Shown here piece after piece: positions 12,450 through 32,266 of a stretch of DNA of 36,498 nucleotides. Below the pieces are notes generated by a model. That model did not search any database and had not been told where the DNA came from. It saw nothing but the letters and a program-made list of their open reading frames with translations. The position numbers and the translations under genes were made by a program. Origin of the DNA: Actinomycetota bacterium (GTDB taxonomy: Bacteria; Actinomycetota; Actinomycetes; Streptosporangiales; Streptosporangiaceae); contig DAHUZQ010000073.1 of the NCBI GenBank assembly GCA_027306495.1, positions 1-36,498 on the forward strand, in the 5' to 3' direction. Numbering within the stretch: the stretch's first letter is position 1; each line of letters begins with the position of its first letter.

Positions 12450-12469
12450 TGCGGGGCGATAGTCCCTGG
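12450..12469. promoter_or_regulatory. DosR-box-like site upstream of the dosR homologue
   Basis: The core GGGGCGATAGTCCC at 12453-12466 fits 14 of 20 positions of the mycobacterial DosR consensus TTSGGGACTWWAGTCCCSAA, with an intact AGTCCC half. A further GGGACC half-site lies at 12432-12437. It suggests autoregulation and could also serve the divergent VOC gene. Confidence 0.6.
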
Positions 12470-12497
12470 ACCCACCGCGGCTAGCGGTTACGGTTGA

Positions 12498-12572
12498 ATG
12501 ATGGTCCGGCGTGGCAGCTTTCATGGTGGTCCGGCGTGGCAGCCCTCATGATGGTCCCACGTGGCAGCCCTC
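12498..12572. repeat. Three 25-bp direct repeats in the dosR-like leader
   Basis: Units start at 12498, 12523 and 12548, all of the form ATGRTGGTCC followed by SRCGTGGCAG and a short C/T tail. They end 3 bp before the AAAGGAG ribosome-binding site. Each unit carries an ATG that reads in frame with the gene, but the strong AAAGGAG points to the ATG at 12592 as the real start. Confidence 0.85.
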
Positions 12573-12591
12573 ATTAAAGGAGCCGGGCAAG

Positions 12592-13278
12592 ATGGACGAG
12601 TCCGCAGGCCGAAAGATTGGCGTCTTCCTGCTGGACGATCACGAGATCGTCCGGCGGGGCGTACATGATCTGCTCGAGGCGGAGCCCGACATTACCGTGG
12701 TCGGCGAGGCCGCCACCGCGGAGTCCGCGCTCGCCCGTATCCCCGCCCTGCGGCCCGATGTCGCGGTGCTGGACGTGCGCCTCCCCGATGGCAACGGCGT
12801 GACGGTCTGCCGGGAGATCCGGTCGAAGATGCCGGAGGTTGCCTGCCTGATGCTCACCTCGTTCGGCGACGATGAAGCCCTCTTCGATGCGATCATGGCG
12901 GGGGCTGCGGGCTATGTGCTCAAGCAGATCCGTGGCACCGACCTCGTGGGCGCTGTCCGCACGATCGCCTCGGGCCGCTCCCTCCTCGACCCGGAAGCCG
13001 CCAGCAGGGTAATGCAGCGCATGCGTGACCAGGCGCAGCGCAACGACCCCCTCTCAGGCCTGACCGAACAGGAACGGCGGATCCTGGAACTCATCGGCGA
13101 AGGGCTGACCAACCGCCAGATTGGCGAGCGGCTCTTCCTGGCGGAGAAGACCGTGAAGAACTACGTCTCAGCGCTGTTTGCCAAGCTCGGCATGGAACGG
13201 CGCGCACAGGCGGCCGCCTACGCGGCGCGGATCTTCGATGAGCCGGACGGCGGCCATCCCCACACCAGCACGCACTGA
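12592..13278 (+). CDS. devR: DosR/DevR-like dormancy response regulator (NarL/LuxR family)
   Basis: This is a 228-residue regulator. The receiver has D15/D16, phospho-acceptor D61 ([12 protein letters not shown]), T89 (LTS) and K111. The LuxR-type domain (about 155-215) contains [21 protein letters not shown] and the recognition helix [26 protein letters not shown] split over its two helices. These segments are nearly identical to what I recall of M. tuberculosis DosR, including the Lys/Asn residues that contact DNA. The ATG at 12592 follows AAAGGAG at the right distance. The leader carries a DosR-like box and three 25-bp repeats. The cognate kinase gene is convergent and ends 41 bp away, rather than following in the same operon as in mycobacteria. 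Confidence 0.95.
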
Positions 13279-13289
13279 GGCGGATTGCG

Positions 13290-13313
13290 GGCCGCCGGGG
13301 TGCTCGGGCGGCC
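13290..13313. terminator. Weak hairpin between convergent dosR- and dosS-like genes
   Basis: GGCCGCC at 13290-13296 pairs with GGCGGCC at 13307-13313 around a 10-nt loop in the 40-bp gap. It could terminate both genes. There is no U-tract and the stem is short. Confidence 0.35.
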
Positions 13314-13318
13314 AGCGT

Positions 13319-15070
<1,752 letters not shown>

Positions 15071-15214
15071 TCAAGGTAACCCGAGCCGTGGCGACGAAGC
15101 CACGCGAGTCGCTCCTATTGTCGCGGCGCGGCGCCGCCGGCCGCCCCGCCGGGAGTGGCTGCCCGCACCGGCCCGGGGGCAGCCAGGCCCGGGCCAACGG
15201 TCAGGCCGCGGCGG

Positions 15215-16075
15215 TCAGGCCGCGGCCGCCGCGCTCGGCGGCACGAGCCAGCGCACCATTTCCGATCCCTCGCCGCCACCGGGCAACGGCGGGAACGAGT
15301 CACCTGTGCCAGGGCCTGCCTGCCGCGCGGGCCAGTCCCGGGCCCGGCCGGGGAGCTCACCTGCCGGTCCGGCCTGGCTCCGGTGTGCGCGCAAGGCGCG
15401 CGACTGCCGTTCCCGCACCTGGCCGGCCACGGACGCCAGGTCAACCCCCCACCGCTCGCCCGGCCCGGGAACAGTGCGGGCCAGCACGGCCAGCCCCGCC
15501 TGCCGCGCCGCTATGGAGGCCGCCACGGCCACCGCGGTGGTATCAAGGTCCGCGAACGCGGCGGGGTCCACGACCAGCAGCAGATCGGCACCTGCCCGCT
15601 GCGCCGCGCGCAGGATCCGCTCGGCCAGGCCGGCCGGCGGAACGAAGCCGAGACCGCCGTCAGGGTAGTCCGCGATGGTCACCGAACAGACACCGAGCAG
15701 TCCGGCGGCCGTCCGCAGTTCCCAGGGCCGGACCGCCTCCAGGCGTTCGGTTGTGGAGTTGCGTTCGGAAGCCTCACCCCGGGTCAGGCACATGACCGCC
15801 AGTCGGGCGCCCCGCATCCCGAAGTAGGACAGCAGCACCCCGAGATCGGCCGACTCCTGGCCCGGCCGGGCGATGACGGCCAGCACCGAATTCGCCCGGG
15901 GCAGGGACGCCGGGCCGTCTGCGACGGCGCCCGCGGATTCTGCTGCCGCGGGGCCTACCGCGGCCATGCCGCCAGGCACCTCTTCCCGGACCGACCCGGC
16001 TGGCAACTGTCGCGGCCCCAGCGAGGGACGTGCCGCCGGAACTGTTGTGATGGCTTCGCTGTTCAACCGGATCAC
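15215..16075 (-). CDS. PIG-L/LmbE-like protein lacking the catalytic metal site
   Basis: This 286-residue protein has the LmbE layout: a hydrophobic first strand (VLAVIAR), then LTRGEAS (98-103), LRTAAGLLGV (120-129), DYPDGGL (136-142) and the late RALRAHRSQ (226-234). The metal-binding motif AHPDDE reads ARPGQE (69-74), so His and both Asp are replaced. The second motif, normally GHPDH, is ADLDT (175-179). The protein is therefore probably not a zinc deacetylase. The first 60 residues and the Pro/Gly-rich tail are low complexity. The start is a GTG after AGGGTGGG. It lies upstream of the dosS-like gene and diverges from the Rv1733c-like gene, with a DosR-like box about 94 bp before its start. 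Confidence 0.8.
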   Translation of the reverse strand: MIRLNSEAITTVPAARPSLGPRQLPAGSVREEVPGGMAAVGPAAAESAGAVADGPASLPRANSVLAVIARPGQESADLGVLLSYFGMRGARLAVMCLTRGEASERNSTTERLEAVRPWELRTAAGLLGVCSVTIADYPDGGLGFVPPAGLAERILRAAQRAGADLLLVVDPAAFADLDTTAVAVAASIAARQAGLAVLARTVPGPGERWGVDLASVAGQVRERQSRALRAHRSQAGPAGELPGRARDWPARQAGPGTGDSFPPLPGGGEGSEMVRWLVPPSAAAAA

Positions 16076-16150
16076 CCCACCCTGTCTGCGTCACGGGGCC
16101 TGATCCATGATGTCCCACAGTGAGCCCGAATGGCCCGTCCCGGGCAGGTG

Positions 16151-16185
16151 CGTTGGTCCGGCAGCCGGGGGACCAACGGCCCTGC
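16151..16185. promoter_or_regulatory. DosR-box-like site in the PIG-L/Rv1733c-like divergent promoter
   Basis: The core is GGGACCAACGGCCC at 16169-16182. The 18-bp segment 16168-16185 is identical to 23501-23518's first 17-18 bases upstream of the nitroreductase gene. In addition CGTTGGTCC at 16151 and GGACCAACG at 16170 form a perfect dyad, so two sites may face each other. Confidence 0.6.
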
Positions 16186-16278
16186 GGGTTCCCTCCCCAA
16201 GTGCCCTAGGTCACCTTGCGCCGGGACCTAGACCTCTGCGGCGGCTGCCGCCACACGGGGAAACATGTCAGGTGGCGG

Positions 16279-16298
16279 CACGGGACCGAGGTCCCGGC
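16279..16298. promoter_or_regulatory. DosR-box-like palindrome upstream of the Rv1733c-like gene
   Basis: GGGACCGAGGTCCC at 16282-16295 has perfect 6-bp arms and ends 50 bp before the GTG start. A related dyad, CTAGGTC (16206) with GACCTAG (16225), lies between this box and the previous one. Confidence 0.7.
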
Positions 16299-16345
16299 CA
16301 CCGGCACCGGTGGGAGTGCGGCGACCCGGTGGAGAGGTGATCGGG

Positions 16346-17017
16346 GTGAACGGGGAGCATGCCGCAGGGAGCAGGCGGGGAGCGCGGAACCGGTGGGCAT
16401 CGTGGGCCCGCCCGGCCTCGTGGTTCAGGTGGGCATCGGGTGCCCACCCGGCCCGCCGGCTCGGCATCGATCGCAACCCGATGCGCCGTGGCCTCGACCG
16501 GGCTGAGGCGGCCATCCAGATCGCAGCGATCATCGCCTTCCTGGCCAGCATGCCGGTGGCTGTGACGGCTGTCGGTCACTGGGCGCAAAGTGCCACCCAA
16601 AGCGCGTCCGGGCCCCATGCACCGGGCTGGTACCCGGTCACCGCGACTGTGACGGCATCGGTGAGCGCCGCTTCGGCCTACTCCGCACGATCGGCGCTGG
16701 TGTGGGCGCCTGCCCACTGGCGCGCGCCCGGCGGCGCCACCCGGCGCGGCGAGATCCTGGCCCCCGTGGGGTCGCGGGCCGGGCAGAAGGTCCGGATCTG
16801 GACCGACCGCGCGGGAACTCCCCGCCCGGCTCCGCTCACGCATTCCCAGGTGGTCAGCCGCGTCATCACCGCCATGGCCCTCACCCCCATCGCCGGTGCG
16901 CTGCTGCTGGGCTTCGTGCTCGGGGTGGTTCACCGGATCCTGGAGCGGCGGCGATCGCGTGCCTGGGAGGCCGGCTGGTTGGCCGCGGAACCCCAGTGGA
17001 CCAAGCGGGCACGCTGA
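16346..17017 (+). CDS. Rv1733c-like two-helix membrane protein
   Basis: This is a 223-residue membrane protein. I take the GTG at 16346, which has GGAGAGG 8 nt upstream; earlier in-frame starts lie in the DosR-like box region. The diagnostic segment RNPMRRGLDRAEA precedes helix 1 (about 57-78). An extracytoplasmic loop of about 100 residues follows, with the pattern GEILAPVGSRAGQKVRIWTD-x-x-G. Helix 2 (about 175-198) comes next, then a basic cytoplasmic tail. This matches what I recall of M. tuberculosis Rv1733c (RNPLVRGTDRLEA and GDRVGIWVD), a DosR-regulon protein of unknown function. Two DosR-like boxes lie upstream, supporting the same control here. Confidence 0.85.
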   Translation: MNGEHAAGSRRGARNRWASWARPASWFRWASGAHPARRLGIDRNPMRRGLDRAEAAIQIAAIIAFLASMPVAVTAVGHWAQSATQSASGPHAPGWYPVTATVTASVSAASAYSARSALVWAPAHWRAPGGATRRGEILAPVGSRAGQKVRIWTDRAGTPRPAPLTHSQVVSRVITAMALTPIAGALLLGFVLGVVHRILERRRSRAWEAGWLAAEPQWTKRAR

Positions 17018-17327
17018 GGTCGCCGGCCCGGCACTCCCCAGGGACGGGCCGCACCCCCGGGCGCTGACGCATTTCCCCAAGGGACCGGTGCACCCCGGAC
17101 ATGAGCCTGCACCGACGCGACCCCACAATGACGCAGCCCGGCCGCGGCCCAAACATGCCGCCGCGCGGCTGCGGCCAGCCAAAGGGCCGGCCGCGACGAT
17201 GACCGAGGTCCCAGCCGATGGTGACCACGTCCCCTGCCCTCCGCCATACATCTCGCAGGAGGCTGCTTACAGAAGACAAATGGCCGGCCATAACGGGCCA
17301 GCCGGAAAGTGCCAAGGAGGCATTCCC
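17018..17327. other. 310-bp gap upstream of the second membrane-protein gene
   Basis: It holds no supportable gene. It contains one weaker DosR-like site at 17196-17215, a GGGACC half-site at 17081-17086, and a very strong AAGGAGG ribosome-binding site at 17314-17320 for the next gene. Confidence 0.5.
17196..17215. promoter_or_regulatory. Weak DosR-box-like site
   Basis: ATGACCGAGGTCCC at 17199-17212 has an intact right half (GGTCCC) and a degraded left half. It lies 116 bp upstream of the ATG of the 199-residue membrane protein. Confidence 0.4.
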
Positions 17328-17927
17328 ATGCGCCGCAGAACGTTCGATGTATTGGCCACCGCAGCCGGCCTGGTCATCGCGGTGGTGCTGCTGGTTGCCG
17401 GCGGCCTGATGCTGTGGGGACACAGCGTCGTGAACGACCAGGTCCACAGCCAGCTCGCGGCCCAGAAGATCTTCTTCCCCGCCAAGGGCAGCCCCGAACT
17501 CAAGGCACTTCCGGCTGCGGACGCCACGGCCATGTCCCGCTACGCCGGCCAGCAGTTGGTGAACGGCCAGCAGGCTGAGGTCTGGGCAGACCACTTCATC
17601 GCGGTTCACCTTGTCAAGATCGGCGGCGGGAAGACCTACTCCCAGCTGTCAGCCGCTTCGCTGGCCAACCCCAAGGACGCGGCGCTCGCCGCCCAGGTTC
17701 AGACCGTCTTCCGCGGGGAGACGCTACGGGGCCTGCTGCTGAACGCCTACGCGTTCTGGCAGATGGGCCAGATCATGCTGATCGGAGCCATCGTCGCGTT
17801 CGCCGCTGCGGCGATCATGCTGGTTCTGTCGCTGCTCGGGGTGTTGCACCTGCGCCGGGTCACCCCCGAGACGGAGCTGTTCGCCGGGCTCACCACCGTC
17901 ACCGCCAAGCCCGTCACAGCAAGCTGA
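17328..17927 (+). CDS. Two-helix membrane protein of unknown function
   Basis: This is a 199-residue protein starting at an ATG with AAGGAGG 7 nt upstream, one of the best ribosome-binding sites in the window. Helix 1 (about 9-32) is followed by an extracytoplasmic domain of about 115 residues with QKIFFPAKGSPELKALP, YAGQQLVNGQQAEVWADHFIAVHL and QTVFRGETLRGLLLNAYAFW. Helix 2 (about 144-170) precedes a short cytoplasmic tail. There are no cysteines and no heme motif. I know similar uncharacterised proteins from actinomycetes but no function. It sits between the Rv1733c-like gene and the cytochrome b gene on the same strand, each with its own DosR-like site, so it is probably part of the hypoxic membrane set. 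Confidence 0.88.
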   Translation: MRRRTFDVLATAAGLVIAVVLLVAGGLMLWGHSVVNDQVHSQLAAQKIFFPAKGSPELKALPAADATAMSRYAGQQLVNGQQAEVWADHFIAVHLVKIGGGKTYSQLSAASLANPKDAALAAQVQTVFRGETLRGLLLNAYAFWQMGQIMLIGAIVAFAAAAIMLVLSLLGVLHLRRVTPETELFAGLTTVTAKPVTAS

Positions 17928-17944
17928 CTCGGGCCGCTACCGCA

Positions 17945-17982
17945 ACCCTGGTTGCCGGGACCAAAGTCCCGGCAACCAGGGT
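17945..17982. terminator. Perfect 17-bp-stem hairpin that contains a DosR-like box
   Basis: The arms 17945-17961 and 17966-17982 are exact reverse complements around the loop CAAA, starting 17 bp after the stop of the membrane-protein gene. This suits an intrinsic terminator, although no U-tract follows. Its centre, GGGACCAAAGTCCC (17957-17970), is also the closest match in the window to the DosR core (AGTCCC and WW conserved). It may be a terminator, a regulator site, or both. Confidence 0.65.
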
Positions 17983-18223
17983 CTGCTTTCCTATGCATAA
18001 GCTGGCGGAATGCGGGCAGGCTGACCACGAGGGCACCCGCCAGTGAGGGGCCGGCACGGGGGAACCGGTCACCGGGGGAAGCCAGCGGAGAAGCAGGGAC
18101 TTGGGGCCGTAGCGCCGCCGAGACCCACCGTCGCCAGGACGGGATGCTCCGAGTGGCTGGACCCGATTCCTCACGGCGGGTGCCACTATCTTGTTCGTAG
18201 TGCCGATCGGCAGCCATTCGCCG

Positions 18224-18243
18224 CGCGGGACCAAGGTCCCCGC
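18224..18243. promoter_or_regulatory. DosR-box-like site upstream of the cytochrome b gene
   Basis: GGGACCAAGGTCCC at 18227-18240 has perfect GGGACC/GGTCCC arms and lies about 100 bp before the GTG start. Confidence 0.7.
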
Positions 18244-18339
18244 GCCCGGTGACTCCCATCCCTACGGGCGTCAGGCCACCCCGGCACATTATGGCCAAGC
18301 CGATACCCAACCCGCGGCAGACAATTCATAGGAGCGGCA

Positions 18340-20322
18340 GTGAGAGTTTTGAGCCTGATACCGACGGGCTCCGGACCGATCAATATGGACCAGCCCGGCA
18401 CCTTCCTGCACTGGTCAATCTTCACCGTCTCACTATCCAACCTCGTCCTGATTCTGGTCATGGTGGTAATTTTCGGGTTTGCCCTGGTTCTCCCATTCCC
18501 GCGGACCCGGGTGCTGCCACCCGAAACGGTCGCCGACCCCGCCACCGGTGACGCCCTCTTCTCCGGGACCGCAGGTGGCACCACCGACGGTGCGGCCAGT
18601 GGCGCCACGGCTGATCCGGAGGACGCCCGGATGTGGACTGCGCGGGTGCGCCGCCGCGCCCTCGCCCTGCTGCCACCCGGCAAGCTGCTGCCGGACCGCC
18701 AGCCCGCTTACGTCGCCTCCTGGGTATATGTCTTCGGCGTCGCCAGCCTCGCCGCCCTGGGCGTGGCCATCGTCTCCGGGGTGGTGATTGCGCTCGGCGG
18801 ACCCGACTGGTGGCACTACAACGCGGTGGGCCACTTCTTCAACAGCCTCCACCTGTGGAGCGTGGAACTGTTCATGGCCCTGATCGTCATCCACCTGTGG
18901 GGCAAGTTCTGGATGGCCGCCTGGCGTGGCCGCCGGTTCTGGACGTGGATCACCGGTGTCGTCGCATTCATGGCCTCCGTCGTGGAATGCTTCACCGGCT
19001 ACCTGTCCCAGCAGAACTTCGACTCGCAGTGGATTTCCACCAGTGCCAAGGACGCCTTCAACTCGGTCGGGATCGGCGCCTTCTGGAACGCCATGAACTT
19101 CGGCCAGATGCTGCTGTGGCACGTGGTGCTGGTCCCGATCGCGCTCGTCGCCATCGTCGGCGGCCACATCCTGCTGGTGCGGGTCCGGGGTGTGAGCCAC
19201 CCACTCCCCGCCCGCCTGCGGGAACCGGGCGCCACCGGGTCACGCCGGGAGCGCCGGCGCTCCCGCGCCGCCGGCGATGCCGCACCCTGGCGCGGGCCGA
19301 CCCGGCGCTACGACATCCTGAAAGAGGGCACGATCGCCTCGGTGATCGTGCTGGCGGCAACCCTGGCTCTGGCGGGCATCCTGTCCTCGCCCGACGATCC
19401 TTCGGTCACCGTGCAGTCCTGGTCCCGGGTCGCCCCGGCCGACTTCCTGGCCACCGCCGCGACCGAACTCAACGGCACCAGCGAGACCGCGACCTACGGC
19501 CCCCCCTACAACAACGGCACCGATGACGTCCAGCGACTGCTGTTCTCACCGCAGCAGGCGGCGGGCGTCACGCAGCCGATCGACGCGGCCCAGGTGTTCG
19601 TCCTCAGCCCGCTCGCCACGCTCGCCCACACCACCCCGGCACTCGCCTCGGCGCTGGCCACCTACCAGCGGGCGCCCGCTTCACAGCAGAAGTCGTGGGC
19701 GGACAACTACGCGAGTGCGGTGACCCACGTGAAGTTCGTGGGCGGTGCGCCAGTCGTCCCGCCGGCGAACGACGGCCCCGTGCCGACGATGCTCGCCTAC
19801 GAACTCGACATGGCCCGGAGCGGCGCGCTCGACACCGACCTGCTCGCCCAGCGCCAGTTCTACGGCACGGACTTCACCAAACCGCTGCTGTTCCTCGAAG
19901 ACGGCGCCTACTTCGCGAATAAGGCGACGGCGATGCACCTGACGGGGACGCAGTGGGGCGTCATGAACGAGACCGGCAGCTATCCGGGCCAGCCCTGGCT
20001 GTGGCTCTACACCCTCTGGTACCAGGTCCCGGGCTTCTCCTCGTCAGCCAACGTGGACATGATCGCGATCTACCTGACCGGCGCGGCCACGATCCTGCTG
20101 CTGCTGATCCCGTTCATCCCGGGGCTTCGGGACATCCCGCGGGTGATCCCGGTGCACCGGCTGATCTGGCGGCGGTGGCCGGTGGCGGCCGCGGGCCCGG
20201 CAGGCACCGGTGGTGCGCCCAGTGCTGGGCCGTCCGGCGCTGACGGGGCAGCGCGCGACGGCTCGGGCCAGCCGGGCTCCCGTGGGGAACGCCCATCCGG
20301 AAGCCCGCACCGAACCGGCTGA
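18340..20322 (+). CDS. Di-heme cytochrome b with large extra extracytoplasmic domain
   Basis: This is a 660-residue membrane protein starting at a GTG behind AGGAG. An extra N-terminal helix (about 25-51) and a Gly/Ala-rich linker precede a four-helix cytochrome b core (about 125-282). The core has two His pairs at the expected positions: H171/H185 (SLHLWSVEL, VIHLWGKF) and H261/H276 (LLWHVVLV, GGHILLV). WISTSAKDAFNSVG follows the first pair. After a basic linker comes helix 330-348, about 235 exported residues without cysteine, and a final helix (about 572-597) with a Gly/Ser-rich tail. Ordinary bc-complex cytochrome b has no such exported domain. No Rieske or cytochrome c1 gene is nearby. 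A DosR-like box upstream suggests induction under low oxygen. Confidence 0.9.
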   Translation: MRVLSLIPTGSGPINMDQPGTFLHWSIFTVSLSNLVLILVMVVIFGFALVLPFPRTRVLPPETVADPATGDALFSGTAGGTTDGAASGATADPEDARMWTARVRRRALALLPPGKLLPDRQPAYVASWVYVFGVASLAALGVAIVSGVVIALGGPDWWHYNAVGHFFNSLHLWSVELFMALIVIHLWGKFWMAAWRGRRFWTWITGVVAFMASVVECFTGYLSQQNFDSQWISTSAKDAFNSVGIGAFWNAMNFGQMLLWHVVLVPIALVAIVGGHILLVRVRGVSHPLPARLREPGATGSRRERRRSRAAGDAAPWRGPTRRYDILKEGTIASVIVLAATLALAGILSSPDDPSVTVQSWSRVAPADFLATAATELNGTSETATYGPPYNNGTDDVQRLLFSPQQAAGVTQPIDAAQVFVLSPLATLAHTTPALASALATYQRAPASQQKSWADNYASAVTHVKFVGGAPVVPPANDGPVPTMLAYELDMARSGALDTDLLAQRQFYGTDFTKPLLFLEDGAYFANKATAMHLTGTQWGVMNETGSYPGQPWLWLYTLWYQVPGFSSSANVDMIAIYLTGAATILLLLIPFIPGLRDIPRVIPVHRLIWRRWPVAAAGPAGTGGAPSAGPSGADGAARDGSGQPGSRGERPSGSPHRTG

Positions 20323-20340
20323 GCGCCAGGAACGGCACCC

Positions 20341-20378
20341 GGCGCCGGTGCCCCGCCTACCGGCGGGGCACCGGCGCC
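20341..20378. terminator. Bidirectional hairpin terminator, 17-bp GC stem
   Basis: The arms 20341-20357 and 20362-20378 are exact reverse complements with loop TACC. It lies between the convergent cytochrome b and GH65 genes. The right arm encodes the last residues of the GH65 protein (APVPRR) and the loop contains its stop codon. Confidence 0.8.
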
Positions 20379-22705
20379 CTGCCGGGTGGCTGCACCGGGG
20401 CGGGACCGGCATCAACCGGCGGGATCGGCAGGCTGACCGGCTCCCCCGGCAACAGGACCACCCTGTCGCCGTGGTGGATGATCTCGACCTGCTCGCCGCC
20501 GTTCATCAACAGGTACCGCGCCGCCAAGCGGGTCGCCTCGACCCGCAGCCGCCGGCCGCGCAGGGCCACCGTGAAGGCCAGCCGCTCCAGGCGGGCCGGC
20601 AGCCGGGGCGCGAAGCGGAGTTGATCGCCCTGCCGTCGCAGCCCGCCAAGCCCCCAGACCAGCGCCATCCAGGCGCCCCCCAGGGCCGCGATGTGCAGGC
20701 CGTTGCTGGTGTCATGCCGCAGGTCATCCCAGTCCATCAGGACCGCCTCGCCAACGTAGTCGTAGGCGAGGTCGAGATGGCCGACCTCGGCGGCGACGAT
20801 CGCCTGGCTGCACGCTGACAGCGAGGAGTCGCGCACCGTCCGGCGTTCGTAATAGGCGAAGTTGCGGGCCATCTGCTCGGCTGTGAAGCAATCGGGCCGG
20901 AACTGCATGGCCAGCACCAGGTCCGCCTGCTTGACCACCTGCTTGCGGTAGAGATCGAAATAGGGAAAGTGCAGCAGGAGAGGGTAATCCTGCTGCGCCG
21001 TCGCGGCGAAGTCCCACTCTTCGTGGTCGGTGAACCCCTCCGCCTGCGGGTGGACGCCGAGCCTTTCGTCGAAGGGGATCACCATGGCCTGCGCCGCCGC
21101 CAGCCAGCCCGCTGCCTCCTGCTCATTCGCCCGCAGGGCCGCGGCCCGCCCGGGATGGCGGTGCACCGCCCGCGCGGCATCACGCAGGTTCTGCTGCGCC
21201 ATCAGGTTGGTATAGACGTTGTTGTCAGCGATCGCGCTGTACTCATCGGGCCCGGTGACGCCATCGATCCGGAACCCCCCGGCCGCGTCGTAATGGCCGA
21301 GCGAGCGCCACAGGCGCGCTGTCTCGACCAGCAGGTCGAGTCCCTCGGCTGCCTCGAACTCCTCATCAGCGGCGACCCCGGCATACGCGGCGGCCGATTC
21401 GGCGATGCCAGCGTTGATATGGAAGGCCGCCGTGCCGGCCGGCCAGTAGCCCGAGCACTCCCGGCCGCTGATGGTGCGCCACGGGAAGGCGGCACCGGCC
21501 AGCCCCAGTTCCCGTGCCCGCTGCCGTGCGAGGTCCAGGGTGCCGTGACGCCAGCGCAGGGCCGCCGCAGCCGCCTCCGGCACCGTGTTCACCAGTACCG
21601 GCATCACGAAGATCTCAGTGTCCCAGAAGGCATTTCCGTCATACCCAGTGCCGGTCAGGCCTTTGGCCGGGATCGGGCGGCCTTCTGCGCGAGCACTTGC
21701 CTGCAGGACGTGGAAGAGCGCGAAACGCACCGCCTGCTGGACCTCGTCATCGCCGTCGACCTCTATCCCGGCGCGGTCCCAGAACCGGTCCAGGTACTCC
21801 CGCTGCTCGGCGAGCAGTCCCTCCCACCCGGCAAGCGCCGCGGTCGCCAGCGCCCCCTCGACCTGGTCGTACAGGGCGGGCCAGGACCGCGCCTGCGACC
21901 ATCCGTGAGCCACGAATTTGACCATCGCCAGCCGCTCGCCGGGTTGCAGCACGGTGCTGAGCGTCAGCCTCGCCAGATCGTGCCGGCTCTCCACGTGGTG
22001 GCGGACCTGCCCAGGGCACTGGACCTGATGATCCATCGCCACCGCGAGCCGCAGTCTGCTCAGCCTGGTGCGGTGCATCAGGATGGCGCTGTCCGCCCTG
22101 GCCTCGTCTGCCTCGTGCACCAGCGGGGAGTTCACCGCCCCGGCGGCCCGCGGATCGCCGGTCTCCTGGGGCAGTTCCTCGTTGGCCACGAGTTCGGACT
22201 GGACCACCACCCGGGCGCGTTCGGTTATGGGCTCTATCTCGTAGCGGATGGCGGCGATAGCGCGCTGGGTGAACGAGACCAGCCGCCGCGACCGCACCCG
22301 GACGGTGCTGCCCGTCGGTGAAACCCACTCGGCTTCCCGGTCCAGCACACCCGCCCGCAGGTCCAGCACCCGCTCGTGCGAGCGCAGCGTCCCATAGCGG
22401 ATATCGAACGGCTCATCGTCCACCAGCAAGCGAATGATCTTGCCGTTGGTAACGTTGATCATGGTTTCGCTGGACTCTGGATTGCCGTAGGCAGGCTCGG
22501 CGGGAGGCATCGGACGCTGCTCGTACATCCCGTTCAGATAGGAACCCGGTGTGCCGTGCGGTTCTCCCTCGTCGAGATTGCCGCGCCAGCCCACGTGCCC
22601 ATTGGCCAGCGCGAATACCGACTCATACTGACCCAGGCGGCTGACCTGCAGTTCTGTCTCCCGCACCGCCCACGGTTCGACCGGCCCCAGGGACTGGCCG
22701 GTCAT
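20357..22705 (-). CDS. GH65-family glycoside phosphorylase
   Basis: This is a 782-residue cytoplasmic enzyme that cleaves an alpha-glucoside such as trehalose, maltose or kojibiose with phosphate, giving beta-glucose 1-phosphate and glucose. It has the N-terminal beta-sandwich (to about 270), a helical linker and the (alpha/alpha)6 barrel with FWDTEIF (360-366). The general acid is E488 in GVTGPDEYS, and the phosphate-binding elements are KQAD (592-595) and DSSLS (626-630). A small C-terminal beta domain follows. Its ATG overlaps the stop of the HAD gene (ATGA), so the two are translationally coupled. That partner would convert beta-glucose 1-phosphate to glucose 6-phosphate. Substrate specificity cannot be read from sequence. 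In M. tuberculosis the DosR-regulated Rv2006 carries related HAD and GH65 domains (recalled). Confidence 0.94.
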   Translation of the reverse strand: MTGQSLGPVEPWAVRETELQVSRLGQYESVFALANGHVGWRGNLDEGEPHGTPGSYLNGMYEQRPMPPAEPAYGNPESSETMINVTNGKIIRLLVDDEPFDIRYGTLRSHERVLDLRAGVLDREAEWVSPTGSTVRVRSRRLVSFTQRAIAAIRYEIEPITERARVVVQSELVANEELPQETGDPRAAGAVNSPLVHEADEARADSAILMHRTRLSRLRLAVAMDHQVQCPGQVRHHVESRHDLARLTLSTVLQPGERLAMVKFVAHGWSQARSWPALYDQVEGALATAALAGWEGLLAEQREYLDRFWDRAGIEVDGDDEVQQAVRFALFHVLQASARAEGRPIPAKGLTGTGYDGNAFWDTEIFVMPVLVNTVPEAAAAALRWRHGTLDLARQRARELGLAGAAFPWRTISGRECSGYWPAGTAAFHINAGIAESAAAYAGVAADEEFEAAEGLDLLVETARLWRSLGHYDAAGGFRIDGVTGPDEYSAIADNNVYTNLMAQQNLRDAARAVHRHPGRAAALRANEQEAAGWLAAAQAMVIPFDERLGVHPQAEGFTDHEEWDFAATAQQDYPLLLHFPYFDLYRKQVVKQADLVLAMQFRPDCFTAEQMARNFAYYERRTVRDSSLSACSQAIVAAEVGHLDLAYDYVGEAVLMDWDDLRHDTSNGLHIAALGGAWMALVWGLGGLRRQGDQLRFAPRLPARLERLAFTVALRGRRLRVEATRLAARYLLMNGGEQVEIIHHGDRVVLLPGEPVSLPIPPVDAGPAPVQPPGRAPVPRR

Positions 22706-23445
22706 GGCCGGCCCAGCAGGTCAGCCAGGTCCCCGACGACCACGCTGGCGCCGTGCGCGCTCAGTTCCGCTGCCTGCCCGGTCCGGTCGACGCCCACCAC
22801 CCACCCGAAACCGCCCGCCCGCCCGGCTGCCACCCCGGCCAGCGCGTCCTCGAAGACGGCACAGTCGCCGGGCGGGACGTGCAGGGCCCGGGCGGCGGCC
22901 AGGTAGGTGTCGGGGGAAGGCTTGCCCGGCAGATGATCTCGGGCGGCGACGACGCCGTCGACGACCGTGTCGAACTTGCCGTCGAGACCGGCGGCTGCCA
23001 GCACGGCGTGGCAGTTCGCGCTGGCCGAGACAACGGCCCGGGACAGCCCCGCCTCGCGCACGGCCCTCAGGTAGGCGACCGAACCCGGGTACGGCCGCAC
23101 CCCGCCCTCGGCGATCCGCCTGAGCACGATGGCGTTCTTGGTCTGGCTCAGGCCCTGCACCGACCAGGTGCCGGCCGGGTCGTCCGGTGCGCCCTCGGGC
23201 AGCGTGATACCCCGCGAGGTCAGGAAGGTCCTGGTCCCGTCCGCTCTCGGGCGGCCGTCGACGTAGCGGTCATAGTCGCCCACCGGGTCGAACGGCCGGA
23301 AGCCGGCCCCTTCCCGGTCCGCCCATGCACGCAGGAAATCATCGAACATCTCTTTCCACGCGGCGGCGTGCACGGCCGCTGTCGACGTCAGGACACCGTC
23401 AAGGTCGAACAGGCACGCCCGTATCTGATCCGGCAGGCCTAGCAC
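22702..23445 (-). CDS. Beta-phosphoglucomutase-like HAD phosphatase/mutase
   Basis: This is a 247-residue HAD-superfamily protein. The nucleophile and acid/base aspartates are D14 and D16 in FDLDGVLTST; later come VVSASANC, the Lys of LPGKPSPDTY and the acidic pair FEDALAG. A helical cap (about 25-105) is present, as in beta-phosphoglucomutase. The start is a GTG (23445). The stop overlaps the start of the GH65 phosphorylase by 4 bp, the usual pairing for phosphorolysis of alpha-glucosides: it would turn beta-glucose 1-phosphate into glucose 6-phosphate. The promoter is shared divergently with the nitroreductase gene, where a DosR-like box lies 57 bp upstream of this start. Confidence 0.92.
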   Translation of the reverse strand: MLGLPDQIRACLFDLDGVLTSTAAVHAAAWKEMFDDFLRAWADREGAGFRPFDPVGDYDRYVDGRPRADGTRTFLTSRGITLPEGAPDDPAGTWSVQGLSQTKNAIVLRRIAEGGVRPYPGSVAYLRAVREAGLSRAVVSASANCHAVLAAAGLDGKFDTVVDGVVAARDHLPGKPSPDTYLAAARALHVPPGDCAVFEDALAGVAAGRAGGFGWVVGVDRTGQAAELSAHGASVVVGDLADLLGRP

Positions 23446-23498
23446 GCCTCAAGCTTCCCAGACGGGCAACCCGATGCCGAGGGCCGGCCGGGCGCGCA

Positions 23499-23518
23499 GC
23501 GGGGACCAACGGCCCTGC
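23499..23518. promoter_or_regulatory. DosR-box-like site in the HAD/nitroreductase divergent promoter
   Basis: GGGACCAACGGCCC at 23502-23515 is 76 bp before the nitroreductase ATG and 57 bp before the HAD gene. The core and its neighbours (GGGGACCAACGGCCCTGC) are identical to the site at 16168-16185. Confidence 0.65.
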
Positions 23519-23590
23519 CTCTCGGCGGCCCCACGGCGGAGGCTGATGATGGAGGTCACGGGGCGCCAGGCAGCGACACGGGGAGATGAC

Positions 23591-24562
23591 ATGAGAGAAG
23601 GACCGCTGTCCCAGCAGGAAGCCGAGCAGTTGGTCGAGACTGCGACGGCGGCGCCCTCCATGCGGAACCTGCAGCCCTGGCGGTTCGTGGTCCGGCCGGC
23701 CGACCGGGTCATCGAGATCTACGCCGACCCGTCGCGCACACTGCGCCAGGCGGACCCACGGGGGCGGGCCGTGCATATCTCCTGCGGAGCGGCGCTGTTC
23801 AACCTGCGCCTTGCCGTAGCGTGCGCGGGTGCCGAGCCGATAGCCAGGCTGCTGCCCTCCGCCCCGGCCAACCCGCTGCTGCTCGCCAGCGTCCGGATCG
23901 GTGGGCCGCGCCCGCCCCAGCCCCAGGAGCAGGACCTGCACGCGGCCATCCACGCCCCGCGGCCAGGGACAGACCGTCAGAGCCGGGCATCCCACATGCT
24001 TTCGGACAAGCTCGCGGCGGCGATGATCGAGGCAGCGAGCCTGGAAGGGGTTTCGCTGCGCATCCTGGACCGGTCGCAGGGGCTGCGGATCCTGGCCTCG
24101 ATGGCGGCTGCCGATCGCTCCCTGCACGCCGACCCTGCCTATCTCACCGATCACCTCGGGGCGCCCGTCCCCCGCTCCTTCGCGGCGCAGTTCCCAGCCA
24201 GCGGGCGCTTGGCGGTCCTGTCGACCAGGGCCGATGACCGCGCCAGCTGGCTGCGGGCGGGCCAGGCCCTGCAGCGGGTGCTGCTGCTCGCCGCGCACCA
24301 CGGATGCCCCGCGGCACCGCTGACCCAGGTGCTGGACCTCCTCGACGCGCCCGCCCGGCCAGATCCCAGGTTCGGGAGCGGTTTCCCGGCGATGCTGCTG
24401 CGACTGGGACCGCATCCCGCTGGGCAGACCCCCCGCACGACCGTGCGGCGGCCGGTCAGGCAGATCATGCGCCTGGTGCCCGACGCCACCGGCCACCGGG
24501 ACGAACGTCCTGGCGGCGCGCCACCTCGGACCCTGGCGCCATCCGGGGCGGCCCAGGTGTGA
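23591..24562 (+). CDS. Acg-type nitroreductase-fold protein
   Basis: This is a 323-residue protein of the Acg family (M. tuberculosis Rv2032, Rv3131 and relatives). The signature APSMRNLQPWRFVV lies near residue 22. HISCGAALFNLRLAVACAG and the C-terminal half (AGQALQRVLLLAAHHGCPAAPLTQ) follow the pattern of the family: two fused nitroreductase-like halves in one chain. Acg proteins are reported to hold FMN with little reductase activity, so a storage or protective role is possible (recalled). The ATG at 23591 has GGGGAG upstream; an earlier in-frame start lies in the promoter region. A DosR-like box precedes it and the CBS-domain gene follows 51 bp later. Confidence 0.9.
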   Translation: MREGPLSQQEAEQLVETATAAPSMRNLQPWRFVVRPADRVIEIYADPSRTLRQADPRGRAVHISCGAALFNLRLAVACAGAEPIARLLPSAPANPLLLASVRIGGPRPPQPQEQDLHAAIHAPRPGTDRQSRASHMLSDKLAAAMIEAASLEGVSLRILDRSQGLRILASMAAADRSLHADPAYLTDHLGAPVPRSFAAQFPASGRLAVLSTRADDRASWLRAGQALQRVLLLAAHHGCPAAPLTQVLDLLDAPARPDPRFGSGFPAMLLRLGPHPAGQTPRTTVRRPVRQIMRLVPDATGHRDERPGGAPPRTLAPSGAAQV

Positions 24563-24613
24563 TGGAAGGGCAGAGCCCAGCCCGGGCTCTCCCGGAGATG
24601 GGAAGAGATCACG

Positions 24614-25444
24614 ATGACCCGGCGGGACACCCACTTCGACGCCATGTTGCGCCACCTCGGCGCCAGCTACTACCAGACCCTGCGGGGTAAGGGGACGCCT
24701 GCCGAAGTCGCCAAGGCCCTGGATTCGGTCGAACGGGAGATATCCCGCCGACGTGGCGAGGCCGGCGAGCGGCCCACACCGCCGGCCGGGCCGCGCTCCG
24801 GGCGCTGGCGCGTCAAGGACGTCATGACCAAGCACGTGATCGCGGTTGACAGGCGGGCTACCAGCACGCAGATCGCCCGGCTGCTGGCCGAGCATCACAT
24901 CAACGCCATGCCGGTGCTGTCGGATAAGCGCAAGGTGGTCGGGGTGGTGTCCGAGGCTGACCTGCTGCGGACCCAGCAGCGGCCCGCATCCGCATGGCTG
25001 CCGGGCCGCAGTGCCCGGCGCTCCTCACCACGTGATCACTTCGCCGCCCAGCTGATGACCGCGCCAGCGGTGACGATCCACCCGGACGCGCCACTGGCTA
25101 CCGCCGCCCGGCGGATGACCAGCGACCATTTCACCCTGCTGCCCGTGGTGGAGGGACACGACGAACTCGTCGGCGTGGTGACCCGCCGGGACCTGCTGCG
25201 GGTCTTCCTGCGTCCGGACGGGGAAATCGCGGCCGAAGTGACAGCGATGCTGACGGACCTGATGATGATCGACCCCCATGCGGTCACGGTCAGCGCGCGG
25301 GACGGGATGGTCACCCTGTCCGGGGACCTGCCAGATCAGCAGCAGCGCTCGAGCGCCGTCCGCCTGGCGGGCGATATTGACGGGGTGCTCGCCGTGATCG
25401 ACAAGCTGTCCGCGCCTTCCGGCACCGCCGTGCCCGCGCGCTGA
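24614..25444 (+). CDS. CBS-CBS-BON domain protein (Hrp1-related)
   Basis: This is a 276-residue cytoplasmic protein. A helical N-terminus (about 1-60) precedes two CBS domains: about 68-120 (VKDVMTKHVIAVDRRA, HHINAMPVLSDKRKVVGVVSEADLL) and about 142-200 (AQLMTAPAVTIHPDAPL, FTLLPVVEGHDELVGVVTRRDLL). A BON-like domain follows (about 205-267, with AVTVSARDGMVTLSGDL). Paired CBS domains usually bind adenine nucleotides as energy sensors; BON domains bind phospholipid or mediate assembly. M. tuberculosis Hrp1 (Rv2626c) is a CBS-only DosR-regulon protein (recalled), so this is an extended relative. The ATG follows GGAAGAGA. It is likely co-transcribed with the Acg-type gene. Confidence 0.93.
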   Translation: MTRRDTHFDAMLRHLGASYYQTLRGKGTPAEVAKALDSVEREISRRRGEAGERPTPPAGPRSGRWRVKDVMTKHVIAVDRRATSTQIARLLAEHHINAMPVLSDKRKVVGVVSEADLLRTQQRPASAWLPGRSARRSSPRDHFAAQLMTAPAVTIHPDAPLATAARRMTSDHFTLLPVVEGHDELVGVVTRRDLLRVFLRPDGEIAAEVTAMLTDLMMIDPHAVTVSARDGMVTLSGDLPDQQQRSSAVRLAGDIDGVLAVIDKLSAPSGTAVPAR

Positions 25445-25489: not shown

Positions 25490-25969
25490 TCAGGGCCAGT
25501 CAGCGACCGCCTGCCCCGCCGCCCGGTCCAGCATCGAGACCCGCGTCGCCTGCAATCGCCGGATCACCACCACGATCAGCCGCCGGGTGAATTCGAAGCC
25601 GAAGTCGGTGTCGGCGTCGCAGTGCGCGCGCACTGCCGCGCCATCGATCTGGAACGCCTCCGTCGGCTGCAAGGTCATCGCGCCGAACTCCCAGCGGAAT
25701 GGAGACACCAACCATGACAGGCCGATCAGATCGCCCCGCCCGAGTGAGGAGATGACCACCCGGCCATCCCCCGGCGCCCGCACGTCCAGCACGACCTGGC
25801 CTGCCCGGATGAGCCAGAAGTCGCGCGCGACCCCACCCGCGCTGAAAAGGCGGTGCTCCGCGGGGAACTTGACGACCGAGGACACGCTGGTCAGGTAGGA
25901 AAGGTGCCGCTGCGGCATCCCGCGCAGGAACTGATGTGCGCCGAGCGCTGGCGCTGTCACCGTGGTCAT
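25490..25969 (-). CDS. Stand-alone cyclic-nucleotide-binding-domain protein
   Basis: This is a 159-residue protein with a Crp/Fnr-type cyclic-nucleotide-binding beta-roll (about 15-125). Recognisable segments are VVKFPAEHRLFSAGGVARDFWLIRAGQV, VVISSLGRGDLIGLSW and EAFQIDGAAVRAHCD, followed by the helix FTRRLIVVVIRRLQATRVSML. The chain ends where the helix-turn-helix of Crp would begin, so it cannot act as a normal transcription factor. The canonical cAMP phosphate-binding RxS pair is not evident, so the ligand is uncertain. It lies 10 bp behind the HTH/PNPOx-fold gene and its ribosome-binding site GAGGGGGAA overlaps that intergenic space; the two form an operon. Confidence 0.9.
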   Translation of the reverse strand: MTTVTAPALGAHQFLRGMPQRHLSYLTSVSSVVKFPAEHRLFSAGGVARDFWLIRAGQVVLDVRAPGDGRVVISSLGRGDLIGLSWLVSPFRWEFGAMTLQPTEAFQIDGAAVRAHCDADTDFGFEFTRRLIVVVIRRLQATRVSMLDRAAGQAVADWP

Positions 25970-25979
25970 CTGTTCCCCC

Positions 25980-26636
25980 TCAGCGCGCGCGGATGCGCCG
26001 GCCGGTCAGGGCCGCCACCGTGATCCGGATGTAGGTTTCCCGCTTACCGCCCGCCCACGGCCGTACGTGCAGACGGGCGACCTCGGCCACTTCGGCTGCT
26101 TCCACCACCAGGTGAGCACGCCCGCTCGCGAGCACGCTCCAGCCCTCACTGAACGCCTCATCGATGTAATCGACCTCGAACGAGACGCCGCGCTGCATGG
26201 CCCGGTGTGCGGCCGACGACCAGATGCTGGTCCGGAAGACGATGTCGTCGCCGAGCATCCGGAAATTGACCGGGGTCGCGACCGGCCCGCGGGTGTCGTC
26301 GAAAACGAACCGGCCGATCCCGCCGCTGCCCAGGTACTCCCGGCACTCCCGGCGGGTGAGGCTTTCCAGCACCGGGTGTGGATGCGCAGGCTGCTGGCCC
26401 GGCGGACGGTCCACCCCCGCTCCTGCCAGCGCGGGTCGCGATGTTCCCAGCGCGGATGCCAGGCGCGTCAGCGCTCCGGGCGTGGGAGCGGCCTCTGGCG
26501 CCGACTCCAGGTAGTCGAGGTAGGTCTCGGCCATCCCGGCGCGGGTGGCCGTCTCCTTGGTGCTCAGCCCCGCCCGGGACCGGTGCTCCCGGATCCGCCG
26601 GCCCAGGTCGGTTGCCCCGTGAGTGGTTTCGGTCAT
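25980..26636 (-). CDS. XRE-type HTH fused to pyridoxamine-oxidase-fold domain
   Basis: This is a 218-residue protein. Residues about 10-70 form an XRE-type helix-turn-helix (LGRRIREHRSRAGLSTKETATRAGMAETYLDYLES in pieces). Residues 90-215 form a split-barrel flavin/F420-binding domain of the pyridoxamine 5'-phosphate oxidase type: GGIGRFVFDDTRGPVATPVNFRMLGDDIVFRT, SFEVDYIDEAFSEGWSVLASGRAHLV. A flavin- or F420-responsive transcription factor, or a reductase with a DNA-binding module, is plausible. The ATG follows GGGAGGG. It heads a two-gene operon with the cyclic-nucleotide-domain protein and diverges from the DUF1918 gene. Confidence 0.9.
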   Translation of the reverse strand: MTETTHGATDLGRRIREHRSRAGLSTKETATRAGMAETYLDYLESAPEAAPTPGALTRLASALGTSRPALAGAGVDRPPGQQPAHPHPVLESLTRRECREYLGSGGIGRFVFDDTRGPVATPVNFRMLGDDIVFRTSIWSSAAHRAMQRGVSFEVDYIDEAFSEGWSVLASGRAHLVVEAAEVAEVARLHVRPWAGGKRETYIRITVAALTGRRIRAR

Positions 26637-26781
26637 CGGCCCTCCCCTGCCCGCCTCACGCCAGCAGAACCAGCATCATGCGCGCTGGTGGGCGCGGACA
26701 GAGTCGAAAGTCCGGCCGGGAGCGAGGTTGGTCCCGGCCACACGGCGGCCGCGATTCGTGGGCCGTCCGGCCCACGGCCGC

Positions 26782-26795
26782 GGGACCTGCGCCCA
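26782..26795. promoter_or_regulatory. Possible degenerate DosR-type site
   Basis: GGGACCTGCGCCCA has a good left half, but the right half is shifted by one base from the usual spacing. Another half-site, GTTGGTCCC, lies at 26727-26735. Both are in the 233-bp divergent promoter between the HTH/PNPOx and DUF1918 genes, at the distance seen for the better boxes. Confidence 0.25.
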
Positions 26796-26869
26796 CTGAC
26801 CTGCTCTGGCTGGGCCACCGACCATGGGTAATGAGGAAAGGGCGGTTGCCGGCCCAGGAGGTGATCACG

Positions 26870-27100
26870 ATGAAGGCCCATGTCGGGGATCGCTTGATCA
26901 CCGAGGACGGCGGCAAGAGCAGGGTGTGCGAGATCATCGGCCTGCACCACACGGACGGGTCCCCGCCCTACGTCGTGCGCTGGCTGAGCGATGGCCATAT
27001 CGCCCTGATGTCCCCCGGCCCTTACGCCAGGCTTGTCCACCGCAGGAACGGGAACGACCGGCACGAAAGACCGTTAAGCCGACGGGAGGCTGGACCGTGA
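26870..27100 (+). CDS. DUF1918-family small protein
   Basis: This is a 76-residue protein starting at an ATG with AGGAGG 8 nt upstream. The pattern MKAHVGDRLI, CEIIGLHHTDGSPPYVVRWLSDGHIALMSPGP in two parts, identifies the DUF1918 family: a small SH3-like barrel widespread in actinomycetes with no assigned function. The C-terminal 15 residues are basic. Its stop overlaps the GTG of the acyl-CoA synthetase (GTGA), so the two are translationally coupled. Confidence 0.9.
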   Translation: MKAHVGDRLITEDGGKSRVCEIIGLHHTDGSPPYVVRWLSDGHIALMSPGPYARLVHRRNGNDRHERPLSRREAGP

Positions 27101-29784: not shown

Positions 29785-29831
29785 GTGGGTAGGACGCGGT
29801 CAGCGGGGAAACGAAACCAAAGGAGTCTGAC

Positions 29832-32213: not shown

Positions 32214-32266
32214 CCGGCCGCCGATCCGATGACCGCGCCCGGCGCGTTTCCCGCCACGGAGGCCAC

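Follow-up and report, generated by a model that had tools for sequence, protein, structure and literature searches.

The gene island

The stretch of DNA analysed, called the window throughout, is the 36 498 bp contig DAHUZQ010000073.1 (contig C177) of assembly GCA_027306495.1, which comprises 3.38 Mb in 252 contigs and is 91% complete; the window makes up 1.1% of it. Between positions 12450 and 25444 the window carries genes for a DosR/DevR-type response regulator and a DosT/DosS-type sensor histidine kinase, together with a series of genes preceded by palindromic sites with the core GGGAC-N4-GTCCC, among them a solitary cytochrome b-like gene. The subject of this work is whether these genes constitute a DosR-type regulon. 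Gene families were assigned from gene calls with Pfam and NCBIfam scans, and the start codons of the Rv1733c-like and Acg genes were picked by us from sequence resembling ribosome-binding sites. Sites were scored with a position matrix trained on 31 sites from the cytochrome b promoters of other genomes, none of them from the window. The features are as follows.

12453–12466: candidate DosR box and putative autoregulation site, with the start of dosR 125 bp further on (matrix score 13.75)
12592–13278, + strand: DosR/DevR-type response regulator, REC and LuxR-type HTH domains, 228 aa (Pfam; phmmer to DevR)
13319–15034, − strand: DosT/DosS-type sensor histidine kinase, GAF-GAF-HisKA_3-HATPase, 571 aa (Pfam; phmmer to DosT GAF-A)
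15215–16075, − strand: PIG-L-family protein (PF02585, E 3e-11, above cut-off)
16169–16182: candidate DosR box between the divergent PIG-L-like (93 bp) and Rv1733c-like (163 bp) genes (score 14.5)
16282–16295: second candidate DosR box, 50 bp before the Rv1733c-like start (score 15.6)
16346–17017, + strand: Rv1733c-family membrane protein (NF050032, 119.2 bits, cut-off 80; scanned as 16265–17017)
17199–17212: degenerate candidate DosR box, 115 bp before the 199-aa gene (score 6.7)
17328–17927, + strand: 199-aa membrane protein of no named family
17945–17982, + strand: terminator-like hairpin with a box-like core at 17957 (fold −43.5 kcal/mol, z −5.6)
18227–18240: candidate DosR box, 99 bp before the cytochrome b start (score 17.4)
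18340–20322, + strand: solitary cytochrome b/b6-like membrane protein, 660 aa (PF13631, E 4.7e-10)
20357–22705, − strand: GH65 glycoside phosphorylase/hydrolase (PF03632, E 4.6e-123)
22702–23445, − strand: HAD protein, beta-phosphoglucomutase-like, overlapping the GH65 gene (TIGR02009, E 1.9e-44, 152.1 bits, just below the cut-off of 153.35; PF00702)
23502–23515: candidate DosR box 56 bp from the HAD-GH65 operon and 75 bp from acg, which diverge from it (score 15.7)
23591–24562, + strand: Acg/Rv3131-family FMN oxidoreductase (NF047509, 203.9 bits, cut-off 199; scanned as 23474–24562)
24498–24511: candidate DosR box within the 3′ end of acg, 102 bp before the CBS-BON gene (score 16.55)
24614–25444, + strand: CBS-CBS-BON protein (PF00571, PF04972)

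The regulator and the sensor kinase

The regulator matched Mycobacterium tuberculosis DevR (3c3w) by phmmer with an E-value of 2.1e-83, and 126 of 206 aligned positions were identical (61%). D61 and K111 align with the phospho-acceptor Asp54 and with Lys104 of DevR, and the equivalent of Thr82 is also kept. Lys179, Lys182 and Asn183, named as the DevR base contacts in a review (PMC4082495), are retained as K186, K189 and N190, while the equivalents of Thr198 and Thr205 are alanines.

The GAF-A domain of the kinase matched that of DosT (2vzw) with an E-value of 1.8e-50. His136 and Tyr158 align with the heme-ligating His149 and the distal Tyr171 of DosS, both being kept, and Gly74 occupies the position of DosS Glu87, which makes the kinase DosT-like at this point (Gly85 in DosT). 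The same review describes glycine at this position as the DosT state, proposed to hold the heme channel open, and calls that proposal unsettled (PMC4082495). The kinase gene is convergent to dosR and has no strong box of its own. A sensor of O2, NO or CO is what such a protein would most naturally be.

Box sites in the window

All seven cores named by the original prediction were found where it had placed them. Those at 16282, 17957 and 18227 match GGGAC-N4-GTCCC exactly, those at 12453, 16169 and 23502 have one mismatch and that at 17199 has two. In order of matrix score the top sites of the window are 17957, 18227, 24498, 23502, 16282, 16169 and 12453; these seven score from 19.5 to 13.75 and are separated by a gap from the next site, at 10.4. 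At a threshold of 13.75 a Markov background yields 6.9 sites per Mb, equivalent to 0.25 per window, and the relatives' own loci hold 55 per Mb, training sites and other boxes included. The six strong cores of the prediction thus all fall within the top seven, where approximately 0.25 chance sites are expected. Its list was incomplete, as the strong box at 24498, 102 bp before the CBS-BON start, had been overlooked, and two of its entries read differently here, as set out below. Distances from box to start codon for the assigned promoters are 50–125 bp; 16169 is in addition 163 bp away from the start of the Rv1733c-like gene.

The first of these entries is 17199 (ATGACCGAGGTCCC), the score of which (6.7) is noise when taken alone, occurring 177 times per Mb. 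A near-identical counterpart stands about as far upstream of the 199-aa gene in four related loci (L108, L087, L120 and L194) and, as a full box, in a fifth (L176).

The second is 17957, which lies at the centre of a hairpin with 17-bp arms that starts 17 bp past the stop codon of the 199-aa gene. Within 200 bp of the stop codon of 20 related 199-aa genes, a perfect hairpin of at least 9 bp was present in 13 and absent in seven; 12 of the 20 carried a boxless hairpin, and a box core was found inside the hairpin only in L018, a near relative. The site is better read as a terminator. It was not the first choice as the cytochrome b operator, being located 369 bp from the start and inside the hairpin; the predicted operator is 18227, which is at the distance seen in relatives. 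As the hairpin of L018 also holds a box core, 17957 may serve as terminator and operator at once. The presence of such a hairpin, with its boxless counterparts in 12/20 homologous genes, could suggest that the boxes, in part or in whole, do not work as operators but are terminator hairpins or GC-rich palindromes of another kind. This is most improbable, as the other six strong sites are located 50–125 bp before start codons and, in relatives, dosR, the 199-aa gene and the cytochrome b gene have boxes at comparable distances.

The signal sits in strong, mostly W-centred sites. Twelve exact cores were found in the genome, three of them in the window (binomial 2.6e-4). The pattern GGGACCNANGKCCC, which is post hoc and drawn from the window, has six sites in the 3.38-Mb genome, five of them in the window (reversed control, 3 + 3), and RGGACNWWNGKCCY has 15 distinct genome sites, of which five are in the window (binomial 4e-7).

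Genome-wide matrix scoring was confined to sites from pattern searches. Among the matches listed, intergenic sites elsewhere in the genome include those before a CtaG-like gene (18.4), a Fer4_5 gene (17.4) and an LmeA-like gene (16.2), a site of 16.4 before a radical SAM gene that diverges from the isocitrate lyase gene, a site of 15.0 in L105 with no gene called downstream and a weaker site of 9.7 before a second CBS-BON gene. These outlying sites, the loci of which include L009, L103, L098, L102 and L015, are leads to further targets.

Recurrence of boxes before orthologous genes

The loci of relatives were the best 80 of 372 cytochrome b loci in other genomes; upstream tests on cytochrome b used the 76 with at least 250 bp of upstream sequence, the other four being dropped as too short. 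In the recurrence counts a strong box has a matrix score of at least 12, and hits lacking the first 40% of the protein and dosR hits below 54% identity were excluded. Approximately 2.8% of random 260-bp windows, regulon regions included, reach this score, and the homologue rows are related to each other and not independent.

In 33/76 relatives the 500 bp preceding the cytochrome b gene held a core with at most one mismatch. A de novo search for 5-mer dyads in the 250 bp upstream of the 76 cytochrome b genes ranked GGGAC-N4-GTCCC first (11/76); in 20 control sets the top-ranked dyad occurred three or four times. The dosR gene was boxed in 20/29 related loci at a score of at least 12. A second, partly overlapping set gave 14/47, made up of 10/17 at an identity of at least 77% and 4/30 at an identity of 67% or less; autoregulation therefore appears to be common in closer relatives and mostly unseen in distant ones. 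The 199-aa gene was preceded by a strong box in 18 of 38 homologues.

Numbers were smaller elsewhere. Both Rv1733c homologues and 3/7 Acg homologues were boxed, and a divergent box, as at 16169, was also found in L137. Boxes preceded 7/32 kinase, 4/17 PPOX and 1/4 cNMP-binding homologues, and none was found for glyoxalase (0/3), the OmpR-type regulator (0/7) or SCO1 (0/1). By sequence comparison, recurrence is clear before the orthologues of dosR, the 199-aa gene and the cytochrome b gene and thinner for the rest, and the boxes of the PIG-L, HAD/GH65 and CBS-BON genes rest mainly on the genome of the window itself.

Co-occurrence of boxes and DosR

In the 80 genomes of the cytochrome b loci, DosR orthologues (E 1e-40 or better) show 54–95% identity and paralogues at most 44%. 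A box upstream of cytochrome b (leave-one-out score of at least 10, a value reached by 1.5% of random windows) was present in 37/53 genomes with DosR and 2/23 without (Fisher 7e-7), or 37/53 and 2/9 when 14 genomes of 1.5 Mb or less were left out and those above 1.6 Mb kept (p 0.01). On the tree the rows lacking both DosR and box form two clades, one of six Actinomycetota rows (five testable) and one of the 14 small genomes, with the single rows L037 and L053, and so only a few independent events lie behind these numbers.

The same data bear on the identity of the regulator. The palindromes could be bound by a different protein of the NarL/LuxR family, either a paralogue of dosR or one resembling MadR, and serve as its operators, with dosR a mere neighbour; by score the nearest NCBIfam equivalog of the regulator is indeed MadR, below cut-off (191 against 300 bits), NarL-type paralogues of ∼40% identity exist in relatives, and two loci, L050 and L089, have a box in genomes where DosR was not found. 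Both are sisters of DosR-bearing genomes on the tree, and an assembly gap or a recent loss of DosR is likely. Box and DosR orthologue co-occur, dosR is itself boxed, the residues equivalent to K179, K182 and N183 are kept and the core fits the published DevR/OsdR element (PMC5069765), all of which makes control by another regulator very unlikely.

Gene presence and absence were also scored in 80 genomes of relatives, the window's own included. The cytochrome b gene was present in 16/80 genomes, 16/16 with DosR and 14/16 with the 199-aa gene, and the 199-aa gene was present in 27/80, the window's own genome being counted in each. In the 79 relatives DosR was found in 15/15 genomes with and 55/64 without cytochrome b (p 0.13), a non-significant difference since almost all genomes have DosR, and the result for the 199-aa gene was likewise not significant (25/26 and 45/53, p 0.13). 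The 199-aa gene accompanied cytochrome b in 13/15 genomes and was present in 13/64 of those without it (p 2.8e-6, a statistic that ignores kinship).

Evidence for and against a DosR-type regulon

Taken together, the regulator, the kinase, the boxes and the target families agree, as the original prediction of a DosR-type island had proposed, and boxes recur before orthologues elsewhere. These data suggest that the island is very probably an oxygen- and gas-responsive regulon of the DosR/OsdR type in an uncultured, Streptosporangiaceae-like soil actinobacterium.

A number of observations weigh against this conclusion. The bare motif is not enriched: with up to two mismatches it occurs 43 times in the window where 54 are expected, and with up to one it occurs 227 times in the genome and 264 times in the reversed control. 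Bare consensus counts at one or two mismatches were therefore rejected as evidence of enrichment, and the proposed excess of boxes at these genes over random positions held for the strong sites, which cluster in the window, but not for the bare motif. The genome-wide count of RGGACNWWNGKCCY is also below its reversed control. Sites of equal score, from 13.3 to 15.5, fall inside genes in L001, L007, L014, L101 and L169, so some of the genome sites must be due to chance. No box preceded cytochrome b in 16 of the 53 genomes with DosR, and 26 of the 30 dosR genes at 67% identity or less had no footprint. The PIG-L and CBS-BON homologues were each boxed in one of five cases, and those of GH65 and HAD in 0/1 each, a single relative row apiece. 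Neither usp nor hspX was found among the window proteins scanned; both are common in known sets and not defining, and usp is especially characteristic of those in mycobacteria and Streptomyces. Six Usp genes are located on other contigs of the genome and none has an upstream site of at least 12, the best being 10.1, 124 bp before the match in L243; a site of 14.2 at a Usp locus (L246) was not counted, as it is on the 3′ side of that gene.

The solitary cytochrome b

The four-histidine cytochrome b is the least expected member of the regulon. Its nearest relatives carry the titles Actinomycetota UBA9676, Actinomycetes RYN_230 and Streptosporangiaceae; Trebonia is more distant. H171, H185, H261 and H276 are conserved at 97% or above in 80 sequences (the window included, one of the 80 relatives being left out as short), and QPWLWL is present in 78 of the 80 cytochrome b sequences. 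The PEWY motif of the Qo site and the PWG motif were found in none of the 80 sequences, and the protein carries a large extra loop. An AlphaFold model was of middling quality (pLDDT 64, pTM 0.59); it matched QcrB of Corynebacterium (7q21_B) with an E-value of 2.2e-4 and low TM-scores of 0.24/0.28, and b6 chains with target TM-scores of 0.45–0.53. Owing to this quality and the low TM-scores, only the fold class was used from the model. In four genomes the protein is encoded as two adjacent stretches (G001:C443, G057:C157, G061:C248 and G078:C59), resembling the split between b6 and subunit IV.

The ordinary QcrB of the genome is encoded on another contig. A conserved partner gene was sought by clustering of neighbours, which recovered cytochrome b itself in 57 of 80 loci, and none was found beyond 11/80 loci. 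No Rieske protein was present among the 20 neighbour proteins scanned, a minority of all neighbours. We infer that the protein is a quinone-linked electron carrier without normal Qo chemistry.

Members of the family were also found in 14 small genomes of 0.5–1.5 Mb with a locus GC of 0.36–0.53 (L040, L047, L061, L067, L073, L079, L083, L084, L088, L091, L093, L094, L095 and L096); seven of these bear a Saccharibacteria title and one is labelled Levyibacteriota. On the midpoint-rooted tree all 14 group together (support 100) amid rows from Actinomycetota, and they have neither DosR nor box. A single horizontal transfer of the cytochrome b gene to Patescibacteria-like cells is likely. In L047, titled Saccharibacteria, homologues of phosphoketolase and acetate kinase directly adjoin cytochrome b from position 11793, and in the actinobacterial L026 and L080 both are located within 10 kb of it.

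Other members and neighbouring genes

The 199-aa protein had no Pfam or NCBIfam match at E ≤ 0.1, and none was found in viral contigs. In the PIG-L-family protein the HPDD metal-site motif has degenerated to RPGQ when aligned to LnmX (5bmo), so this is probably a pseudo-enzyme. The CBS pair of the CBS-BON protein we take to be Hrp1-like.

HAD and GH65 homologues adjoin dosR, with no strong box, in L183 (G096:C90). This locus shares its genome with L034, which the tree places close to rows of Acidimicrobiaceae. An Hsp20 gene is located ∼260 bp before dosR in L087.

After the island, positions 25490–33376 of the window encode a cNMP-binding protein, an HTH-PPOX protein, a GNAT-fused ADP-forming acetyl-CoA synthetase, a phosphoketolase and an acetate kinase, possibly an acetate fermentation module without a strong box. 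The phosphoketolase, acetate kinase and acetyl-CoA synthetase genes (26.8–33.4 kb) were dropped as members of the regulon, there being no strong box in the window and footprints in 2/3, 0/3 and 0/9 homologues respectively. Between the HTH-PPOX and GNAT/acetyl-CoA synthetase genes is the sequence GGGCCGTCCGGCCC (26760–26773), with a low matrix score of 4.0; it is identical to the core of the Streptomyces coelicolor OsdR sites at SCO0215 and SCO6041 given in Table 1 of PMC5069765.

Comparison with known systems

The island resembles the DosR-DosS/DosT system of M. tuberculosis in its orthologous regulator (61% identity), heme-GAF kinase, box core, CBS pair and members of the Rv1733c and Acg/Rv3131 families; the assignment of the two genes to these families in the original prediction was borne out by matches over cut-off. 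It differs in that no usp or hspX was found in the island, the kinase gene is convergent to dosR, a BON domain is added to the CBS pair, and HAD and GH65 are separate genes, Rv2006 being the fused OtsB1. The cytochrome b and the 199-aa protein are additions, neither of which is known from the M. tuberculosis set.

In S. coelicolor, OsdR-OsdK provides a non-mycobacterial counterpart. PMC5069765 describes OsdR as a DosR orthologue with 61% identity to DevR that binds DevR boxes, shares a core regulon and has a nitroreductase-family target near osdR. It gives the predicted consensus as AGGGCCGATCGGCCCT, and its Table 1 has entries for usp, nar and ppdk genes but none for cytochrome b; the word 'cytochrome' does not occur in the main text on the OsdR regulon (PMC5069765). 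The idea of an extended regulon outside the mycobacteria is supported: cytochrome b and the 199-aa gene are boxed in many genomes. The PIG-L box recurs in a single relative (1/5), and a regulon of this kind outside the mycobacteria is not new.

PMC5069765 also states that OsdR controls sporulation genes in S. coelicolor, so that DosR-type regulation could be correctly assigned here and the signal be something other than hypoxia, such as redox state, NO or development; the signal is not readable from sequence. In the present kinase the heme ligands are kept, with a DosT-like open-channel glycine, and hypoxia-linked genes are present in the islands of some relatives, and a different signal is consequently unlikely.

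In Mycobacterium smegmatis NiFe-hydrogenase genes are induced with devR clusters under hypoxia (PMC2799521). NiFe-hydrogenase genes near DevR occur likewise in two of the related loci. L087 (2056–7266) has large and small subunit, FeS and NAD-binding genes near cytochrome b, L023 (7536–8837) has the large subunit near cytochrome b, and in both the hydrogenase genes fall in the same 20–22 kb as dosR. The window differs, with no hydrogenase gene among its proteins scanned. A species-specific DosR set is described for Mycobacterium abscessus in PMC10034137.

With the cytochrome b of bc1 complexes and the b6-subunit IV pair the protein shares four histidine heme ligands in two pairs, a weak fold match to QcrB and b6, and the occurrence as two adjacent open reading frames in 4/80 genomes. 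It is set apart by the lack of PEWY and PWG, the large extra loop and the lack of a conserved partner gene. Literature searches on DosR in Streptosporangiales and Acidimicrobiia, on Trebonia with cytochrome b and on actinobacterial DosR genomics showed no title on such an island among the matches listed, with subscription journals mostly outside coverage. The kind of regulon is already known from mycobacteria and Streptomyces, and its lineage-specific members appear to be new.

Proposed mechanism and significance

In the mechanism that we propose, the cytosolic, DosT-like heme-GAF kinase would lose O2, or bind NO or CO, and then autophosphorylate and pass the phosphate to the DosR orthologue. 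Phospho-DosR would bind palindromes of the GGGACNWWNGTCCC type and activate its own gene, the PIG-L/Rv1733c pair, the 199-aa gene, the cytochrome b gene, the HAD-GH65 operon, acg and the CBS-BON gene. The cytochrome b would be induced by hypoxia and act as a quinone-linked electron carrier. Gas sensing, phosphotransfer, binding, activation and induction by hypoxia are here deduced from the sequence.

We suggest, tentatively, that Streptosporangiaceae and Acidimicrobiia may possess a DosR-type regulon with conserved effectors of their own, namely a solitary four-histidine cytochrome b lacking PEWY and a conserved Rieske partner, which would be a new hypoxia-induced quinone-linked carrier, and the co-occurring 199-aa protein. 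The cytochrome may later have passed to small Saccharibacteria-like genomes, where it would be free of DosR control. Tests are feasible because Trebonia kvetii (L057), a named isolate, has boxes before both dosR and cytochrome b.

The DosR regulon has mostly been studied as a latency programme of tuberculosis. That actinobacteria of soil and peat hold an island whose sensor, regulator and boxes match it supports an older, environmental role, and the two little-studied membrane proteins with conserved boxes are testable candidates for the handling of electrons once oxygen runs out.

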